DNA from: an alpha proteobacterium SCGC AAA536-K22
GTDB taxonomy: Bacteria; Pseudomonadota; Alphaproteobacteria; Puniceispirillales; Marisalimonadaceae
Assembly (NCBI GenBank): GCA_000421325.1
Contig: ATWQ01000008.1
Coordinates: 1 to 64,000 of the forward strand
DNA length: 64,000 nucleotides
Reading direction: 5' to 3'
Below are positions 5,040 to 16,396 of the stretch, piece by piece; within the stretch, counting starts at the first letter, position 1, and the number at the start of each line of letters is the position of its first letter. The notes beneath the pieces were generated by a model. That model saw nothing but the letters and a program-made list of their open reading frames with translations. It ran no database searches and was not told the origin of the DNA. A program made the translations under genes and the position numbers.

Positions 5040-5187
5040 TATATATCATCTTTTTTAGCAAATTATTTTTTTGATTTTTTTAATTATTTAAGTTTACAAC
5101 TTCATATTATAAAACTGATACATCATTTTTTTAACTTTTACTTTATGCATGGAGGTTAAATGATGAAGAACAATTCTAAATTATTCT
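5040..5187 (+). pseudogene. Decayed remnant of an acyltransferase_3 (OafA-like) gene
   Basis: Translation YKTDTSFF*LLLYAWRLNDEEQF*I aligns with YGTDTSFLKPLLHTWSLGVEEQFYI of the intact gene at 7590-9626; clear nucleotide similarity about 5108-5175 vs 7968-8035. Confidence 0.8.
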
Positions 5188-7589: not shown

Positions 7590-9626
7590 TTGAATTATAG
7601 AGCTGAAATAGATGGCTTAAGAGCAATAGCCGTTGTATCCGTTATCTTATATCACGCACAGATAGTTATCTTTGGTAGAGATTGGTTTGAAGGTGGCTTT
7701 ATCGGTGTTGATATCTTTTTTGTTATCAGTGGCTATCTCATAACTCGAATAATTTTAACTGAACTTGAAGAAACTAATTCATTTAGCTTCATAAAATTCT
7801 ATGAACGAAGAGCACGTAGGATACTTCCTATGCTGTTCCTTGTCATTGTCGTGTGTATTCCATTTGCTTGGCAAAAACTCCTACCATTGGATTTGGTTGA
7901 TTTTGCTAAAAGTGCTTTATCCGCAATAGGGTTTGGCTCAAACTTTTTTTTTTACCTTTCAACTACAAATTATGGAACTGATACATCATTTCTTAAACCT
8001 TTACTTCATACATGGAGTTTAGGTGTTGAGGAGCAATTTTATATCTTTTTCCCTATATTTACCCTTTTAATTTGGAAGTTTGCTCGTAAATCTTTTCTAA
8101 CTCTTCTCATTGGAATGCTACTTATGAGCATTCAATTCGCCGATGTTATGGAAGGAACGAATTCAGATTTTAACTTCTTTTTGCCGTTCTCGCGTTTTTG
8201 GGAATTGTTTATTGGCTCTGCCTTAGCGTTGATTGAATTAAAATATGGGCGAACAAAAAATGTAATATTAACACAAACTTTACCAATTTTGGGTTTGTTT
8301 TTAGTCGTACACAGCATCACTTTCTTTAACGAAAGCACGCCTCATCCAAGTTTCCAAACATTGATGCCAATAGTCGGAGTTGCTTTGGTAATAATGTTTT
8401 GTTCAACTGAAGACTTTGTAGGAAAAGTGCTTTCGTTGAAGCCAATTGTTGGTGTTGGACTAATTAGTTATTCACTATACCTTTGGCATTTCCCGATATT
8501 TGCTTTTGGTAGAATTGGCTCATTCAACCCTTCTGCTTACGACAAGTTAGAATGGATAGCATTAGCCTTTTTGCTCTCAATAATATCTTACTATTTGATT
8601 GAGAGGCCATTTAGGAAAAAATATTTAATTACCACAAAAATTGTTTATGTAACTTTTTTTGCTGTAATAAGTGGATTGGTTTTTTTTAACTATAATTTAA
8701 TAAAAAATGATGGCTATAAAAGTCGTTTGCCACAAATTTTATTGAAGCAAAATTTAGATGAGGCTGTTTGGGATAACTTCAAGCAAAACGGCAAACCATG
8801 TTATCAAAGGAAATCAGATTTTTGTAAAATTGAGAATGATATTTCTTTAACAACAGTTTATTCCTTATCCGACAGTCACTTCTCAGCTATGTCACCTCAA
8901 CTAGTTAAGTTTTTGGGTAAGCAGTTTAATTATACTGAAGCCAATATAGGAAGCTGCCCATTTGTATTGGGAGTTAACAAATATAACCTAGGTGGAAAAC
9001 ATGCTCACTGCACTAACGAATTTCAAAATTTGAGATATTCACTCATTAATCATAAACCATCAATTATTTTAATTGGCGGACGTTTTCCATTATACTTAAA
9101 CTCAATGAAATTTGACAATAAAGAAGGTGGCGTAGAAGGGGGCAAAACGGGACCATTCAAAGCAATTGATGGCTCTACTTTTGAAGATGCCTTTAAAAAA
9201 ACTATAGATAAATTAACTAAGGACGGTCACCAAATTATTTTTGTCTATCCAATACCAGAAGTAGGAGTACATGTTCCTAAACACCTCTTCCAAAAAATTC
9301 AGAAAATTAAGGAAATCAAAAACTTAGAAGTAATAAACCAGTTAATATCTCTTAATCCTCTTACAACAAGTTATAAGGTTTATTCTGACCGTACTAAAAG
9401 TACATTTGAATTATTTGATTCAATTAAATTTACGAATGTTCATCGAGTTTATCCACACAAATTATTTTGTGACATACAGATTAAAAATAGATGTGTAACT
9501 TATAATAAGGATGAAGTTTTTTACGCTGACGATGATCATCCCAGTGATGCAGGTGCTGAAATGGTTGTAAATAAAATAATGCACAAAATTTTTGCAGCTG
9601 AAGAAAATATTAGGAAAATAAAATAA
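7590..9626 (+). CDS. Acyltransferase family 3 (OafA/YrhL-like) with C-terminal SGNH domain
   Basis: RAEIDGLRAIAVVSVILYHA, GVDIFFVISGYLIT, HTWSLGVEEQFYI; C-terminal SDSHFSAM and DDDHPSDAGAEM; TTG start. Confidence 0.93.
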   Translation: MNYRAEIDGLRAIAVVSVILYHAQIVIFGRDWFEGGFIGVDIFFVISGYLITRIILTELEETNSFSFIKFYERRARRILPMLFLVIVVCIPFAWQKLLPLDLVDFAKSALSAIGFGSNFFFYLSTTNYGTDTSFLKPLLHTWSLGVEEQFYIFFPIFTLLIWKFARKSFLTLLIGMLLMSIQFADVMEGTNSDFNFFLPFSRFWELFIGSALALIELKYGRTKNVILTQTLPILGLFLVVHSITFFNESTPHPSFQTLMPIVGVALVIMFCSTEDFVGKVLSLKPIVGVGLISYSLYLWHFPIFAFGRIGSFNPSAYDKLEWIALAFLLSIISYYLIERPFRKKYLITTKIVYVTFFAVISGLVFFNYNLIKNDGYKSRLPQILLKQNLDEAVWDNFKQNGKPCYQRKSDFCKIENDISLTTVYSLSDSHFSAMSPQLVKFLGKQFNYTEANIGSCPFVLGVNKYNLGGKHAHCTNEFQNLRYSLINHKPSIILIGGRFPLYLNSMKFDNKEGGVEGGKTGPFKAIDGSTFEDAFKKTIDKLTKDGHQIIFVYPIPEVGVHVPKHLFQKIQKIKEIKNLEVINQLISLNPLTTSYKVYSDRTKSTFELFDSIKFTNVHRVYPHKLFCDIQIKNRCVTYNKDEVFYADDDHPSDAGAEMVVNKIMHKIFAAEENIRKIK

Positions 9627-9908: not shown

Positions 9909-9976
9909 ATGGTGGGACTAACTGGGATTGAACCAGTGACCCCTTCGATGTCAACGAAGTGCTCTCCCGCTGAGCT
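9909..9976. repeat. Distal att site: 68-bp direct repeat of tRNA-Val 3' portion
   Basis: 9909-9976 identical to 16321-16388; tRNA-like but lacks the 5' acceptor strand (continues gcctccgg). Confidence 0.95.
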
Positions 9977-10083
9977 GCCTCCGGAGAATTTCAAAAACTC
10001 AAGTAAATCATACACTTAATCTACAATCACTTTTTATGTACTATAGCTCAATATAGCTAATTATCCAGCTTTTTTATATGAGT

Positions 10084-10111
10084 GTGTGACAGGAGTGTGA
10101 CAGAAATTAAG
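10084..10111. promoter_or_regulatory. Putative integrase arm-type sites, left end
   Basis: GTGTGACAG-GA-GTGTGACAGAAATTAAG, 11-bp spacing; matches motif at 16255-16282. Confidence 0.65.
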
Positions 10112-10468
10112 AACTCACCTATACCCCTACCCTATAATTCTATAGGATTTATATATAATAAATAGCCCTGATATTTAGTTAGAAAATATCATCAGGTTAA
10201 TGATTTCTAGTATTAATTATATTTAATTAAGAAATCTTCTGGTAATGGAAAGAGTATATATGTATTTGACTTTACGCTGTCTTTGAGACATGGGGTTATG
10301 GGAGGATATGTATAGTTAGGGTGTGCAGCAGATTGAACAACTTTTATGTTTAATTCCTAAGTAAAATCATTCAGAATATAAAACTATTAAAGTGAAGTAT
10401 TAATTTGTATTGTCATATAGATGTAATAATAGAAAAATAAAATATTTATATTTAAACAGGAGTAAATC

Positions 10469-10834
10469 ATGTCAGGAATAGTTAAAAAATCTTTCAATAA
10501 CCCGGATGAAGTTCGCAGTCCAGATAAAGCTAACGTTCATGTATGTGACTTAGGTGGTGTTGCCGCAGCGAAAATGGTACTTCAACCTGGTTGGAGTTGG
10601 TCAACTTGTATTAAACCTGTAGTCGGTGGAGAGAGTTGTCAAGCACGTCATGTTGGGACTGTACTATCAGGTTCTATGTCAGCAAAGCATAATGATGGTA
10701 CTATTGATACCTTTGTTGCAGGTGATGTATATGTAATTGAACCTGGACATGATGGTTGGGTGGAAGGTGATACTGAGTGTGTAGCTTTAGAATTCAACGC
10801 AACTGCTGCTAAAACATACGCTGCGAAAAATTAA
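10469..10834 (+). CDS. Cupin domain protein
   Basis: RHVGTVLSGSMSAKHNDGTIDTFVAGDVYVIEPGHDGWVEGDTECVALEF; SD AGGAG upstream. Confidence 0.8.
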   Translation: MSGIVKKSFNNPDEVRSPDKANVHVCDLGGVAAAKMVLQPGWSWSTCIKPVVGGESCQARHVGTVLSGSMSAKHNDGTIDTFVAGDVYVIEPGHDGWVEGDTECVALEFNATAAKTYAAKN

Positions 10835-10865
10835 TAATTAATTTATTCATTTGAGACATTACAAA

Positions 10866-10995
10866 CAACTAATGTAGCGTAACCATTTTAATCACTCATA
10901 TAGAAACATACAGCAGCGTTAATGTAACCAGAGTCAATGGTGCATGAGATGTGGTTGTAGTGGGTGTATGAGTCTGTGTGAGTCAGGGATGGTGT
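10866..10995 (+). repeat. Island intergenic repeat copy R1
   Basis: Shared blocks: GTAACCATTTTAAT, CAGCAGCGTTAATGTAA, GTCAATGGTGCATGAGATG, GAGTCTGTGTGAGTCAGGGATGG. Confidence 0.9.
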
Positions 10996-11056
10996 GTTAA
11001 AGTTTGATTATTTAATTATAGTTTCCATTTATCTTAAAATATCATAAGTTAATATA

Positions 11057-11377
11057 ATGTACGCACGTGTAATAAAATTTACTTTTGTGAATCAATTTTC
11101 AAAAGAAGCCACTACTTCCCTTTTAAATAATTTAGTAACGAAAAAAGGCTTTTCTCAGGGGATGATTTTTAGAGTAACCATTGATACATCCGAAACACAA
11201 AGATATTCAGTTACAGTATGGCCTAATAAACAAGGCAGTGATAAAACATGGAAATCATTTGCTGAAAATGTATTGACACAAATAAAAGACACAGGAGCAA
11301 AGGTAGAGACTACTTTTGGACCTATTGACGAATTAAATGTCTCCAAAGACTTTGATTTCTCTAAATACAATTTTTAA
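11057..11377 (+). CDS. Small protein, possibly dimeric alpha/beta-barrel (ABM-like)
   Basis: 106-aa ORF MYARVIKFTF...MIFRVTIDTSETQRYSVTVWPNKQGSDKTW; fold is inference. Confidence 0.55.
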   Translation: MYARVIKFTFVNQFSKEATTSLLNNLVTKKGFSQGMIFRVTIDTSETQRYSVTVWPNKQGSDKTWKSFAENVLTQIKDTGAKVETTFGPIDELNVSKDFDFSKYNF

Positions 11378-11496
11378 TAGATTACAGGTAGTTAACTTTT
11401 AGGATTTTATTCATTAATAAGACCCATTTATAATGGGACATGAAGCTATGGCTAAATATGGAGAGTTAGGATTTCCAACAGTTTTTGAAATATGAT

Positions 11497-11850
11497 TTAA
11501 TAATTATAATCCAATAGGTTAAGTGTTCTTGTAGTTAATCTCTTTACAGTAATTTTTTTAAAGAAATTTTCATTCTCTTTAAAATGTTTTTCTATAACTT
11601 TTTGTCCCTTAACATAGGCATTTTCGTCTTTATATTCAAATAACGTTGATAATGCAAAACCACCTTCTTTGTTCCATACCTGATTCAATCTAAAGCGCAT
11701 CAATCCAATTTTTTTCATGCTTTCATAAAAGTTTGAACCTGTTTTTTCTACATAATTTATAAATAATTCCATTTCTGCTTCACTAGAAAAATCTATTAAA
11801 ACATGACTAATTAGTTTTGCTGAAGGTATTAAATTTTTTTGTTCATTCAT
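11497..11850 (-). CDS. Small protein, paralog of the 13191-13529 product
   Basis: Shared WNKEGxxxxxxLFEYxDExAYVxxQxxxEKH with 13191-13529. Confidence 0.65.
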   Translation of the reverse strand: MNEQKNLIPSAKLISHVLIDFSSEAEMELFINYVEKTGSNFYESMKKIGLMRFRLNQVWNKEGGFALSTLFEYKDENAYVKGQKVIEKHFKENENFFKKITVKRLTTRTLNLLDYNY

Positions 11851-11917
11851 ACATATAACCTATTGGCTAATTTAAAACATTAAACAATAAAATTATAACT
11901 TTGCAGTTACTATATTA

Positions 11918-12220
11918 TTATATTCCTTCAACCATAAGTATATTTGAAGTAGCATTTTCTAATCTTATTTTTTTATAAGGTCTGTATTCTTCACTATCAT
12001 ACCATTTCATAGCTGATTTTTTGTCAGGAAATTTTACTAATACCATTCTAGTAGGTTTCCATAAATTTGTTTCCAAAGAATCTATCTCTCCACCCCGAAT
12101 TAAGTATTCACCACCATAGCTTTCAATCATAGGTTTAACTTTTTCCATATATTTTTTGTATTCTTCTAGGTTGTGTATATCCACGTCACCAATCATATAA
12201 ACTGACATAATTCTCTCCAT
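11918..12220 (-). CDS. DUF1330-like protein
   Basis: YMIGDVDIHNLEEYKKYMEKVKPMIESYGGEYLIRGG...PTRMVLVKFPDKKSAMKWYDSEEYRPYKKIR. Confidence 0.85.
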   Translation of the reverse strand: MERIMSVYMIGDVDIHNLEEYKKYMEKVKPMIESYGGEYLIRGGEIDSLETNLWKPTRMVLVKFPDKKSAMKWYDSEEYRPYKKIRLENATSNILMVEGI

Positions 12221-12348
12221 GTTTTCTTTTTCATATTTATCTCGCTAATCAAACACCTACAAAGTAAATGTATAAACTACCAAACAATAAAATATCAATT
12301 ATGACAATTTTCATAAAGTTATTCATGCTAATAGTTTAATCCAAAGAA

Positions 12349-12477
12349 ACACCCCTCGTAAAGTATTAACCAATTTAATGTCTCATACAGAGTTATACAA
12401 TAGTGTCAGTGTAAGTTAAGTCACTAGAAACATGAGATGTTGTTATAGTGGTTGTGTGAGTCTTTTTGAGTCAGGAG
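12349..12477 (+). repeat. Island intergenic repeat copy R2
   Basis: ACACCCCTCGTAAAGTATTAACCAATTTAATGTCTCATACAGAG...ACATGAGATGTTGTTATAGTGGTTGTGTGAGTC...GAGTCAGG aligns with R1/R3. Confidence 0.9.
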
Positions 12478-12491
12478 TTTATAGTCTGATT

Positions 12492-12866
12492 TTATTTATT
12501 ATTTTCATACCAATTATCTAAGTTTATTATTTCATCTTTTGGTTTTAAACTTGATGTAAACCTCTCTACTTCAACAACAAAAAAACTAGCATACTTATCT
12601 GTTCCCCAACTTTGAACTTGCTTTTCTACATCTTCCTTTGAGTTAGCTAAATAATGAGAACAAAAAAAGGTACTATTGTTTCCAAGCCACGTTTGAGAGC
12701 ATGTTGCAAACTCTCCAACTGCATCTTCAGCCCATTTGCCGTGAGTAACACCTTTTGGATACAATTTGTTAAAAGAGGATTTATATTCATCTGACTTTTT
12801 TTCTGACAGAAAATCATAAATAACAATATAGTTATTCTTTCTATTTTCAGTATTTGTTTCCACCAT
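12492..12866 (-). CDS. Hypothetical small protein
   Basis: 124-aa ORF within island; no recognised family. Confidence 0.55.
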   Translation of the reverse strand: MVETNTENRKNNYIVIYDFLSEKKSDEYKSSFNKLYPKGVTHGKWAEDAVGEFATCSQTWLGNNSTFFCSHYLANSKEDVEKQVQSWGTDKYASFFVVEVERFTSSLKPKDEIINLDNWYENNK

Positions 12867-13190
12867 TAACCTATCAATACTTAAGCAATAGCATCAGTTT
12901 ATGTATTCCTGAATCTGTGTCAACAGGCACAGTTTCTTTCACACTTAAAAAGTCGCTACTGAGTACAGGGGTTCTGCTTCATTTATATGTAATTATAATT
13001 TAACTATAATAATATTTATATGTATCACTTAACTGTAACACTATAAGTGTAATCCTACCCCATGCATGAACCACCCCACCCTTGTACGTAATATATACAT
13101 AGGCTCTGCAGTAGATAGAGGTATTTACAATAATTAGACAGTGAAATATTCTATTATTAATAACTTTAACTTTTTAAATAGGACACTTTT

Positions 13191-13529
13191 ATGACTTCTT
13201 CAAAACTAGTAAATTATACCACAAGAGAATTTATGTCAGACCATGAACTTGAACAATACATAGTTAAACAAAACGAAATTTTTACACCTAAAGTTATTGA
13301 AGAATTTACGAAAGCTGGAATGTTAAGAAGAGTTTTGACTAAACTTTGGAATAAGGAAGGTGTTCATAGAGTTGGTATATTATTTGAGTATAGAGACGAA
13401 AAAGCATATGTTTCATGCCAAAGTCTATTAGAAAAGCATTATATCCCAATGGTAAAAACATTTATTACTAAAGTAATAGGAAGCCGGGGTATTGTAGTCC
13501 ATGAATTTAGTTCTGAAGAATTTAACTAG
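13191..13529 (+). CDS. Small protein, paralog of the 11497-11850 product
   Basis: LWNKEGVHRVGILFEYRDEKAYVSCQSLLEKHY; SD-like AGGA upstream. Confidence 0.65.
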   Translation: MTSSKLVNYTTREFMSDHELEQYIVKQNEIFTPKVIEEFTKAGMLRRVLTKLWNKEGVHRVGILFEYRDEKAYVSCQSLLEKHYIPMVKTFITKVIGSRGIVVHEFSSEEFN

Positions 13530-13536
13530 ATATAAA

Positions 13537-13672
13537 ACACACCCCCCTAGTAAAGTGTTAACCATTTTAATGACTCATACAGAGTCGTACAGCATGGTTA
13601 ATGTAATCAGTGTCAATGGTACATGAGATGTAGTTATAGTGGATGTAAGAGTCTGTGCAAGTCAGGGATGGT
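13537..13672 (+). repeat. Island intergenic repeat copy R3
   Basis: Aligns with R1 and R2; contains nested inverted repeats TTAACCAT/ATGGTTAA and GACTC-ATACA-GAGTC. Confidence 0.9.
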
Positions 13673-13763
13673 TATAGCTATATATGTATAGTTAGGTTAT
13701 GTTGCATATGAAGATTATTAATTTATTGCTTAATTGATAAATACCGCATTTTGTTCTTAATTA

Positions 13764-14453
13764 TTAAAACTTTTGCCAAAGATTTGGGTTTGGTAATAAA
13801 TGTTCAAATTGATTAGAGTTTTTAAGCATAATTGAGATATCACCAGATATTGAAATTCTATCTTCATTTGATAAATTTCTTATAGTGGAGTGTGCAGTTT
13901 TAGATGGAAAAATGACTATTTCATCTTCCATAACGTCAATTTCAAAAACAGTTTGGTTAAGATTATTTATACCACTTAGTAAACCCTTTTGTAGTTTATC
14001 ATATGAGAATAATTTATCTGCAATTTCGTTTGGGTTTTCATTAAAACTAAAAACAATATTACCAGAATTTTGAGGTTTTTTTAAATAGTATGCGAAACTA
14101 ATATTAGACTGCCAGTGTTTATGAGGATTTAAATACTCATTTTTATTACAAACTGTGGCCCAAGACCTCTGCATATAAAAATCAATCATTTCTATATTTA
14201 TGTTTAATGTACTAGCATATTCCTTAACTTTAGTTCCAATTTCTTTATATAATTTTCTAAAAAACTTATTTCTTAATAAGAATTGCTCTCCATTTAAGTC
14301 ACTTGTCCAAGCTGAATTATCATTCTTATTTGAGTTCTTAATGTTTAAAATACGTTCTATCATAATAGATTTTTCACTATTATTCATATCAATAATGTCT
14401 TTGAAAACACTGAAGGGCATAAATTGATAAGATTGATTAGATTTAATTGTCAT
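13764..14453 (-). CDS. Putative 2OG-Fe(II) oxygenase (TIGR02466-like)
   Basis: NPHKHWQSNISFAYYLKKPQNSGNIVF... and FPSKTAHSTIRNLSNEDRISISGDI. Confidence 0.7.
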   Translation of the reverse strand: MTIKSNQSYQFMPFSVFKDIIDMNNSEKSIMIERILNIKNSNKNDNSAWTSDLNGEQFLLRNKFFRKLYKEIGTKVKEYASTLNINIEMIDFYMQRSWATVCNKNEYLNPHKHWQSNISFAYYLKKPQNSGNIVFSFNENPNEIADKLFSYDKLQKGLLSGINNLNQTVFEIDVMEDEIVIFPSKTAHSTIRNLSNEDRISISGDISIMLKNSNQFEHLLPNPNLWQKF

Positions 14454-14593
14454 TTTGTAAACGCTAAATCAATATTATCAAAATGATACATATTATCTAA
14501 AAATTATCATTAATTACAAAACTAATATTTAAATGTTTAATTTGCAGGCAATTATTTAATTAAAAATTAACGACACACACAAATCTTGATTTA

Positions 14594-14721
14594 AGAGTCA
14601 TACAGAGACAATTCATCTTTCTGGCCAGGATTGCGTATAAAATCATTTTACCTAGGTCCTATGACTCTAAAATCGCCATTAAACGCTGCTTTAGATAGCC
14701 GGAAACACACAGCCACCCGGC
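14594..14721. other. Inverted-repeat-rich intergenic element (possible structured RNA or regulatory region)
   Basis: AGAGTCATA (14594-14602) / TATGACTCT (14660-14668); GCCGG (14698-14702) / CCGGC (14717-14721). Confidence 0.35.
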
Positions 14722-14796
14722 ATTACAGAAAATAAGCAATAAAATTAAAAAACTGGAATTTGCAACTTTATATAAATCTATATAGTTTTATTTGAT

Positions 14797-15207
14797 ATGA
14801 AAAAATTAGGTAAATATACAAAAGAAGAATTAGTTATACTTGAAAATATGTATCAAGATGGCTTTACAATTTACAAGATAGCTAGAGATTTAAGAAGAAG
14901 TCAGAAGTCAGTAAGGAATAATCTAATACGATTAAAATTAATGAAGGCCCCTATTGAGACCTGTATAGATTCTAATGAGATAATTTCAAAGAAAACTAAT
15001 TATAATCTTTTAAACTTATTACCTACTACCTTCCTTCTTTTATCTTTAATTCAGCTTAATACTAACTTCTTAAAGTTTAATACCTTAAGTCAACTACTAG
15101 TATTACTACTATCTACTTTTATAATTATATTGATGACTTATAAATTTATTAAAAGAACTTATAATTTAATATTCTTATCTTTGTATTTTTATATTTTAAT
15201 GATGTAG
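14797..15207 (+). CDS. Small HTH protein with C-terminal transmembrane helices
   Basis: N-terminal YTKEELVILENMYQDGFTIYKIARDLRRSQKSVRNNLIRL (HTH-like) followed by two hydrophobic stretches. Confidence 0.55.
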   Translation: MKKLGKYTKEELVILENMYQDGFTIYKIARDLRRSQKSVRNNLIRLKLMKAPIETCIDSNEIISKKTNYNLLNLLPTTFLLLSLIQLNTNFLKFNTLSQLLVLLLSTFIIILMTYKFIKRTYNLIFLSLYFYILMM

Positions 15208-15298
15208 TTATTATATATATATATTATATATTATTATATATCCTAATTATAACTAATATCTCTTCTTATTAATCTTAATTAAACTATATAGAGCGCCT

Positions 15299-16255
15299 TC
15301 AAGATTTTGGATGAGCATATCTAAACAACTGACTTATGGTTCTATGACCACTTACAGCTGCTATTTCAGGTATGGTATTTCCCTTCTCAAATAATCTGCT
15401 AATGGCTTCGTGTCTTAAATCATGGAACCTTATTTTAAGAGATAATCTTTTACATAACCTTTGATACAACAATCTCAAACTGTTTGTAGTCAGTGGAAAA
15501 ACAAATTCATTTTTTACATTAAGAGTTTTTAAAATATTATATGATTTGTCTGTCATTGGTATTATACGTGGATGACCATTCTTTGTATTTTCAACTGTTA
15601 TTAATCGTCTTTTAAAATCAATATCAGCCCATTTTAAAGATAATATTTCACCTCGTCTCATAGCTGTTTCCAGAGCAAGAACAATAATAGGATGAAGATA
15701 AATGTTATTATGGTCTTTTGTGTATTGAAGAATTAATTCTAAATCTTTATCTTGTATTCTTCTTATAACCCGTTGATAAAGCTTGGGTATTTTAATGTGT
15801 CTAAATAGGTCTATTGGCACATCCCAACCCCATTCTACCTTAGCAATCTTTAAGGCATGTCTTAATATACCAAACTCTCTAGCAAAACTTGATGGCTTTA
15901 TATTAGCCAACCTTTCATCTCTGTAATTGGTAATATCAATGGGTTGTAATTTATCAAGTGGTATCAGCATCCATAGGTTACGTGCTAATGATTCAATAAT
16001 GATATTCTCATTATGGGATGATTTTTTAAGAGGTGTAACCTTCTGTTTATACTGAAGAATTATCTCTTTAAAATACTTGGGTCTATATAGTTCCCCAAGC
16101 TTTAACTTACTTTCCAACTCTAGTTCTTTCTGCCTTGCCCACCTCCTTGCATGGTCTAAAGAGATGAGAGTTGCACTGGTAGAAAGTCCTTTGATGCGAA
16201 TCTGAACCTGGTATTTATTATTGCGTTTTCTTATGGTAGCCATATATAACCTCAC
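15299..16255 (-). CDS. Tyrosine recombinase / phage-type integrase
   Basis: ALETAMRRGEILSLKW, FHDLRHEAISRLFEKG, VSGHRTISQLFRYAH; start may be 16243 (MATIRKRNN). Confidence 0.95.
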   Translation of the reverse strand: MRLYMATIRKRNNKYQVQIRIKGLSTSATLISLDHARRWARQKELELESKLKLGELYRPKYFKEIILQYKQKVTPLKKSSHNENIIIESLARNLWMLIPLDKLQPIDITNYRDERLANIKPSSFAREFGILRHALKIAKVEWGWDVPIDLFRHIKIPKLYQRVIRRIQDKDLELILQYTKDHNNIYLHPIIVLALETAMRRGEILSLKWADIDFKRRLITVENTKNGHPRIIPMTDKSYNILKTLNVKNEFVFPLTTNSLRLLYQRLCKRLSLKIRFHDLRHEAISRLFEKGNTIPEIAAVSGHRTISQLFRYAHPKS

Positions 16256-16282
16256 TGTGACACATGTGTGACAGTCATTAAG
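16255..16282. promoter_or_regulatory. Putative integrase arm-type sites, right end
   Basis: CTGTGACAC-AT-GTGTGACAGTCATTAAG, same spacing and trailing ATTAAG as the left end. Confidence 0.65.
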
Positions 16283-16321
16283 TATATATATGATGAATTA
16301 CTGCTAAGTCCTTGAAATTTA

Positions 16322-16396
16322 TGGTGGGACTAACTGGGATTGAACCAGTGACCCCTTCGATGTCAACGAAGTGCTCTCCCGCTGAGCTATAGTCCC
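16322..16396 (-). tRNA. tRNA-Val (anticodon GAC), CCA encoded
   Basis: GGGACTA...TAGTCCC acceptor, anticodon arm CTTCG-TTGACAT-CGAAG, T-arm CTGGTTCAATCCCAG. Confidence 0.96.

Follow-up and report, generated by a model that had tools for sequence, protein, structure and literature searches.

Short palindromic intergenic repeats are represented by ERIC, Correia, BOX and REP, of which BOX and REP/BIME have a modular build as well. A CALIN is by definition devoid of IntI, so the absence of IntI alone does not exclude this class. Closest to the locus described here are two systems that link repeats or gene modules to exchange. Neisserial intergenic mosaic elements (NIMEs), which consist of dRS3 and RS repeats, are mosaic arrays with short inverted repeats (dRS3 motif, ATTCCC(N8)GGGAAT); their proposed role is to stimulate recombination between neighbouring genes and incoming DNA, and dRS3 is the suspected target of a phage integrase (PMC3898611). 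Minimal mobile elements (MMEs) are whole-gene modules that are exchanged between strains by homologous recombination (PMC3898611). Like the NIMEs, the repeats of our locus, R and B, form an intergenic mosaic of repeat types with raised exchange at adjacent genes; like the MMEs, the modules between them are exchanged as whole genes.

The tRNA-Val island and its repeats

The window, which is the whole stretch of 64,000 nucleotides that was analysed, contains an island of ~6.4 kb (9909–16396) that is bounded by tRNA-Val at one end and by a 68-bp identical tRNA-Val copy at the other. The three hallmarks of a tRNA-anchored integrative island, namely a tRNA, an integrase and direct att repeats, are all present. 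Besides the integrase, the island contains eight small genes, which are located on both strands; the gene calls are mechanical ORFs, backed by recurrence. The features are as follows.

9909–9976, − strand: partial tRNA-Val copy, the far att-like repeat; 68 of 68 nt identical to 16321–16388, partial tRNA match
10276–10333, + strand: partial element B (3′ part, ending ...TATAGTTAGGGTGTGCAGCAGAT); B profile 38 bits, read directly
10469–10834, + strand: cupin-like small protein, 121 aa, family F19; Pfam Cupin_3 E = 0.0022, weak and below the curated cut-off
10866–10995, + strand: R1; profile match 10880–10992, 108 bits, 86% identity to R3
11057–11377, + strand: small ORF, 106 aa, family F1 (27 members in the sampled loci); no convincing Pfam match
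11497–11850, − strand: DUF6974 protein, 117 aa, family F0 (64 members); Pfam DUF6974 40.5 bits, cut-off 26
11918–12220, − strand: DUF1330 protein, 100 aa, family F39; Pfam DUF1330 2.7e-28
12345–12478, + strand: R2; profile match 12363–12477, 83 bits
12492–12866, − strand: small ORF, 124 aa, family F10, 3′ flank of R2; without Pfam match
12877–13126, + strand: diverged element B, upstream of an F0 gene; B profile columns 86–333, 55 bits
13191–13529, + strand: DUF6974 protein, 112 aa, family F0; Pfam DUF6974 2e-43
13536–13673, + strand: R3, nearest to the consensus; profile match 13555–13671, 111 bits, RNA fold z = −3.57 on the + strand
13764–14453, − strand: putative 2OG-Fe(II) oxygenase, 229 aa, family F40; Pfam 2OG-FeII_Oxy_5 4.6e-16
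14797–15207, + strand: HTH protein with hydrophobic C-terminus, family F41, a possible phage-type regulator; PHROG 323 D5-like regulator 7.9e-07
15299–16255, − strand: tyrosine recombinase, phage-type integrase, family F42; Pfam PF00589 4.7e-29, PHROG 1 integrase 5.2e-48
16322–16396, − strand: tRNA-Val(gac), the attachment site; ARAGORN, Rfam tRNA

Phage matches of the island are confined to tRNA-Val. The F19 protein has a 99% identical counterpart in another genus (locus L102). Elsewhere in the window, a 98-nt direct repeat of 78% identity (5084–5181 and 7947–8044) probably reflects two adjoining related acyltransferase-like genes.

The sequence-only reading had described R1, R2 and R3 as three diverged, alignable copies, all on the + strand; both the repeat search and the profile agree with this. 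In the repeat search of the window, R1 and R3 form a direct repeat of 114 nt with 86% identity, R2 and R3 match over 72 nt with 79% identity, and the three copies share 45 nt (87%). The shared block CATGAGATGTNGTTATAGTGG occurs exactly three times in the 64 kb at up to 3 mismatches (shuffle mean, 0.00). The nested inverted repeat noticed in R3 is real; it belongs to a larger imperfect palindrome that extends across the whole element. R is a non-coding imperfect palindrome of ~118 nt, with consensus arms TGACTCATACAGA-G-TCATACAG and CTGTATGA-G-TCTGTATGAGTCA. It carries near-invariant blocks of ~25 nt at both ends, and the copies are only ~67% alike in the interior. The term single-gene units does not fit these arrays: the R1–R2 interval holds three genes and the R2–R3 interval two, and across the family the median between consecutive copies is 2 (57 intervals, exactly one gene in 12). 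That R follows directly on the 3′ end of one or more ORFs is true as a trend and not as a strict rule; the 3′-side neighbour points its 3′ end at R in 89 of 114 cases, the 5′-side neighbour in 57 of 109.

A second element, B, was absent from the sequence-only reading. B is a non-coding repeat of ~330 nt that ends in TATAGTTAGGGTGTGCAGCAGATGGGG, and it is itself a mosaic. It is found upstream of many R copies and also at many places without R; in the window it occupies 10276–10333, 11433–11481 and 12877–13126, and other loci with B include L031, L038 and L085. In 110 of 119 adjacent pairs B and R are on the same strand, and their order and strand are kept in other families of the order. R, too, is often followed by the terminal ~46 nt of B; B, B-tail and R combine in several orders. 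One family-wide ORF group, F23, is probably a spurious frame inside B.

The sequence-only reading had also suggested a transcribed or structured element. If R were a functional RNA or a terminator expressed from the + strand of each array, better folding of that strand than of the − strand would fit, and RNA parameters give this result for 45 of 45 aligned copies; R1 and R3 fold better than shuffles as RNA. However, the + strand also wins with DNA parameters (44 of 45), and R2 folds no better than shuffles. Paired cells amount to 84.5% versus 84.7% in shuffles, with a covariation score of 0.084 versus 0.088, and GU and AC cells match permutation. RNAalifold gave a fold without a long consensus stem, and a hand-built hairpin was without covariation. 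With no covariation above shuffles and no Rfam match, the RNA part of the suggestion is not supported, and we regard an RNA function as highly improbable. The palindrome may matter as DNA.

Distribution of R

The family profile, which was built from the window copies, kept the better strand per site, since the palindrome matches its own reverse complement. In the genus-wide search (E ≤ 1e-5), R was present in 31 of 40 genomes, with 1–8 copies per draft genome; homologous islands carry the repeats, as the modular-linker interpretation of the sequence-only reading implied. The loci fetched from these 31 genomes contain 116 R copies with a profile score >25. The copies lie nearly always within tRNA-anchored islands, 85 of the 116 have another copy within 5 kb, and 18 of 23 adjacent R–R pairs are on the same strand. 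Several copies follow an F2 integrase that adjoins tRNA-Arg, -Gly or -Leu. Outside the genus, R is rarer or partial: full or partial copies occur in four further members of the same family, from genera g11 and g13, and in a few genomes from other families of the order. The first ~36 nt of R, its 5′ box (TGTTAACCATTTTAATGACTC...), keeps 89–94% identity over 32–45 nt in other genera and families, and outside the family R is diverged beyond it. R had no match in the phage and plasmid collections, and literature searches of an open-access library gave no description of these repeats. Draft contigs often end near R. Assembly chimeras are unlikely as the cause of the joints described below, given that R copies from one genome reach only ~67% likeness and that many islands are embedded in long contigs.

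With its length, palindrome and intergenic position, R resembles ERIC, Correia and BOX, and the 3′ end usually presented by the 3′-side neighbour would suit a MITE-like or REP/ERIC-like selfish palindrome that inserts after genes, with R as a passenger of ordinary island turnover. We consider this quite unlikely. The copies are concentrated in island arrays, and the identity shared by flanks continues into R and stops within it. No clean R-less site with the same flanks was found; the apparent empty sites, which would have indicated insertion as a transposon, proved to be B and its 46-nt tail, which recur there. The Y1/RAYT transposase (PF01797) was found in 0 of the 40 genus genomes.

R separates modules that occur in many combinations

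Flank classes were defined by 300 nt on each side of R, and 108 copies had both flanks. These copies have 39 kinds of 5′ flank and 49 kinds of 3′ flank in 85 combinations. Among recurrent 5′ flanks, 13 of 16 have more than one 3′ partner (up to 10); the same holds for 13 of 16 recurrent 3′ flanks (up to 6 partners on the 5′ side). Cells and pairs are non-independent events, and the counts describe diversity, not rates. Flanks that are 93–99% identical between species join unrelated DNA across R. For example, DNA 98–99% identical to that of the F10 gene, which lies 3′ of R2, is found in four other loci, with a different 5′ module there. In all, 108 pairs of R copies have one flank, but not the other, in common at ≥93% identity, a tally with a few artefacts from flanks that are truncated by a contig end. 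The distance from gene to R stays constant while the partner varies; F4, for instance, lies 14 nt from R in many loci. The ORFs between the repeats do vary and gene order is not fixed, as the sequence-only reading anticipated; its concern that the repeats might be remnants of duplicated gene tails is answered by the many unrelated families that flank R, which is therefore not the duplicated tail of one gene. The modularity of island genes around R is strongly supported. Because the flanking genes combine differently in almost every genome, R marks joints where island genes swap between species.

Flank polarity is strict, and each flank keeps its own side of R. Only 6 matches between a 5′ (U) flank and a reversed 3′ (D) flank were found, all from one gene start region; inversion at the R palindrome was rejected on this ground.

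The shuffled cargo is mostly small: DUF6974 (64 members in the sampled loci), DUF1330, DUF6854, cupins and a 2OG-Fe(II) oxygenase. Further cargo includes transporters (TauE, Mem_trans), a caspase-domain protein, and enolase-superfamily and beta-lactamase-fold enzymes. The expansion of DUF6974 stands beside DUF1330, DUF6854 and similar families of ~100 aa in one island pool. The caspase-domain (Peptidase_C14) genes (L042:7157–8650, L031:2959–6000) have their 3′ end 5 nt from R in several loci. One protein of ~490 aa, F5, recurs in R islands and in other families (L029:792–2267, L035:4776–6251, L080:764–2158); it matches only PHROG 4756, a phage family of unknown function, and is possibly a replication protein, to judge by its motifs. 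No phage structural genes were recognised among the proteins searched, except for a weak tail/lysin match of the beta-lactamase-fold protein.

Crossovers are scattered within R

For pairs that share one side only, the break was placed on the R alignment at the likeliest end of ≥93% flank sharing. Breaks on the 5′ (U) side extend from about column 10 to column 125 and are frequent at 20–45; those on the 3′ (D) side extend from column 10 to the end of R and are frequent at 110–131. These clusters are inflated, because breaks within the two near-invariant blocks lack precise placement. Recombinant trios have crossovers at about columns 45–46, 69–71, 83 and 100–119. The sole trio that passed the strict filter, L042_8656, has its crossover at column 83 and shows 3 mismatches when treated as a chimera, compared to 20 and 37 mismatches to its parents. 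Linkage inside R decays, with r2 between sites falling from 0.15 (<10 nt) to 0.03 (>90 nt), and four gametes are seen in 91–99% of site pairs. Since crossovers are scattered in R and linkage decays across it, the recombinogenic linker fits best among the ideas of the sequence-only reading. Its modular-linker interpretation is supported in two parts, the modularity and the recombinogenic linker, and not in the single-gene units or the transcribed, structured RNA.

Copies of one locus have an R-interior identity of 0.679, those of one genome 0.670 and those of different genomes 0.669. Because identity within genomes matches that between genomes, R undergoes no concerted evolution within genomes; its copies in one genome are no closer than copies of different species, which indicates that each genome samples a common pool. 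Compared to background, ends of ≥93% identical shared segments are enriched 4.7-fold in R, 2.7-fold in B and 2.3-fold in other intergenic DNA, and reach 0.46-fold in genes; the divergence of R itself may end alignments early and add to its enrichment. As R has only ~2 times the segment ends per base of other intergenic DNA, exchange also takes place elsewhere between genes: R is a preferred joint, not the sole one.

These data bear on a site-specific cassette system, in which a tyrosine recombinase (F2, F42 or XerC/D) would recognise boxes in R, such as the inverted repeat TGACTC-ATACA-GAGTCA, and move modules in an integron-like manner. The imperfect palindrome, the strict polarity and the strand-coherent arrays are what such a system would have. 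Moreover, many of the detected breaks fall within the two boxes or close to them, the 5′ box is conserved in other genera and families as given above, and an F2 integrase adjoins B or R in several islands, other families included. However, R also has clean crossovers in its interior, linkage decays smoothly, and D-side flanks come without a whole R attached, unlike attC-ended cassettes. When attC boxes (RYYYAAC ... GTTRRRY) were sought at the two ends on either strand (for the R′-box form of attC, see PMC9892861), both boxes were found in 0 of 108 copies. IntI (TIGR02249) was above the curated cut-off in 0 of 40 genus genomes, and products of U/D inversion were not seen. The system is in our opinion unlikely. 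The sequence-only reading, which had seen no integron attC, was correct on this point.

Discussion

We consider it probable that homologous recombination through R/B homology patches in tRNA-targeting integrative islands makes the joints. A family of such islands in the order carries both R (~118 nt) and B (~330 nt), which often accompanies it, and their recurring same-orientation copies would act as portable stretches of homology; this role is suggested because the same repeats recur in the same orientation in island after island. A crossover between a resident R (or B) and a copy on incoming island DNA would join the left-hand module of one copy to the right-hand module of the other. Repeated exchange would build islands with small cargo genes from a genus-wide shared pool, and R would remain at the joint as a patchwork of past exchanges. 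The palindrome may help to start the exchange, and ordinary homologous or homeologous recombination may complete the joints. Exchange of this type between repeated stretches of homology yields just such a picture of scattered crossovers, strict orientation and linkage decay. Several observations go against it: the excess of segment ends in R over other intergenic DNA is only about twofold, an interior likeness of ~67%, beside near-invariant end blocks of ~25 nt, is low for efficient RecA exchange, and the clustering of breaks near the end blocks would also be yielded by a site-specific enzyme.

For the arrival of DNA, ComEC (PF03772) was not found in the 40 draft genus genomes, whereas the control genomes were positive. 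A competence-driven route as in Neisseria is thus unlikely, and a phage, a gene transfer agent or island excision become candidates for the supply of DNA.

The origin of the repeats is a separate matter. B–R could be the cis-acting site of an integrative element (an attP arm, or a single-strand or transfer origin) that was duplicated by repeated integration and deletion; recombination at B–R would then be a side effect. Since this concerns origin, it is compatible with homologous exchange through R and B, and we hold it as a tentative possibility. B–R follows an F2 integrase in several islands, an association that extends to other families, and B and R keep order and strand across families; however, many copies have no integrase nearby, and no relaxase was recognised among the proteins searched. 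The F2 integrases themselves (L056:3647–4789 and relatives) consist of DUF6538 and a tyrosine recombinase and are often followed by B–R. Rather doubtful is an enzyme-driven cassette system of the order that works independently of IntI, with a recombinase or a single-strand process acting on B–R and the 36-nt 5′ box as its recognition site. If true, a genus-wide pool of small gene modules would circulate among tRNA islands.

R gives physical joints for the shuffling of island gene content in a group with small (~2 Mb) genomes, and R copies scored on both flanks make gene exchange between uncultured species countable. Reaching several families with a ~36-nt box that is ~90% identical, R is also a testable candidate for a recombination hot spot.

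Compared to ERIC, Correia, BOX and REP, R is set apart by description: it is concentrated in islands, its flanks are shuffled as modules and no Y1 transposase accompanies it. The window island shares tDNA attachment, an integrase beside the tRNA and variable cargo with other tRNA-targeting tyrosine-recombinase islands, including tycheposons, to which the likeness is a general resemblance; different from these, it has internal R/B linkers between modules.

Like integrons and CALINs, R arrays present small genes between same-orientation imperfect palindromes, often at gene 3′ ends, and the palindrome can fold single-stranded (consensus hairpin, R1 and R3; R2 weak). Different from them, an R unit has a median of two genes, on both strands. 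The fixed crossover point of integrons (G|TTRRRY) has no counterpart in R, where crossovers are scattered over many positions; the integron reading fails on IntI, on paired R-boxes and on this fixed crossover. R arrays resemble integron arrays in layout only and are not an integron, which is a caution for annotators: integron-like layouts arise without integrons.

Compared to NIMEs, R is ~118 nt in size rather than 20 bp as dRS3, has 1–8 copies per draft genome rather than ~700 and is concentrated in tRNA islands, in genomes where ComEC was not found; no sequence relationship is expected, and the dRS3 motif is absent from the R and B consensus as read. MMEs use conserved flanking genes at one locus, whereas here non-coding repeats are the joints and the modules move among islands at several tRNA genes. 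R is no NIME by sequence, copy number or DNA source; by analogy, the NIME together with the minimal mobile element appears to be the nearest functional parallel found.
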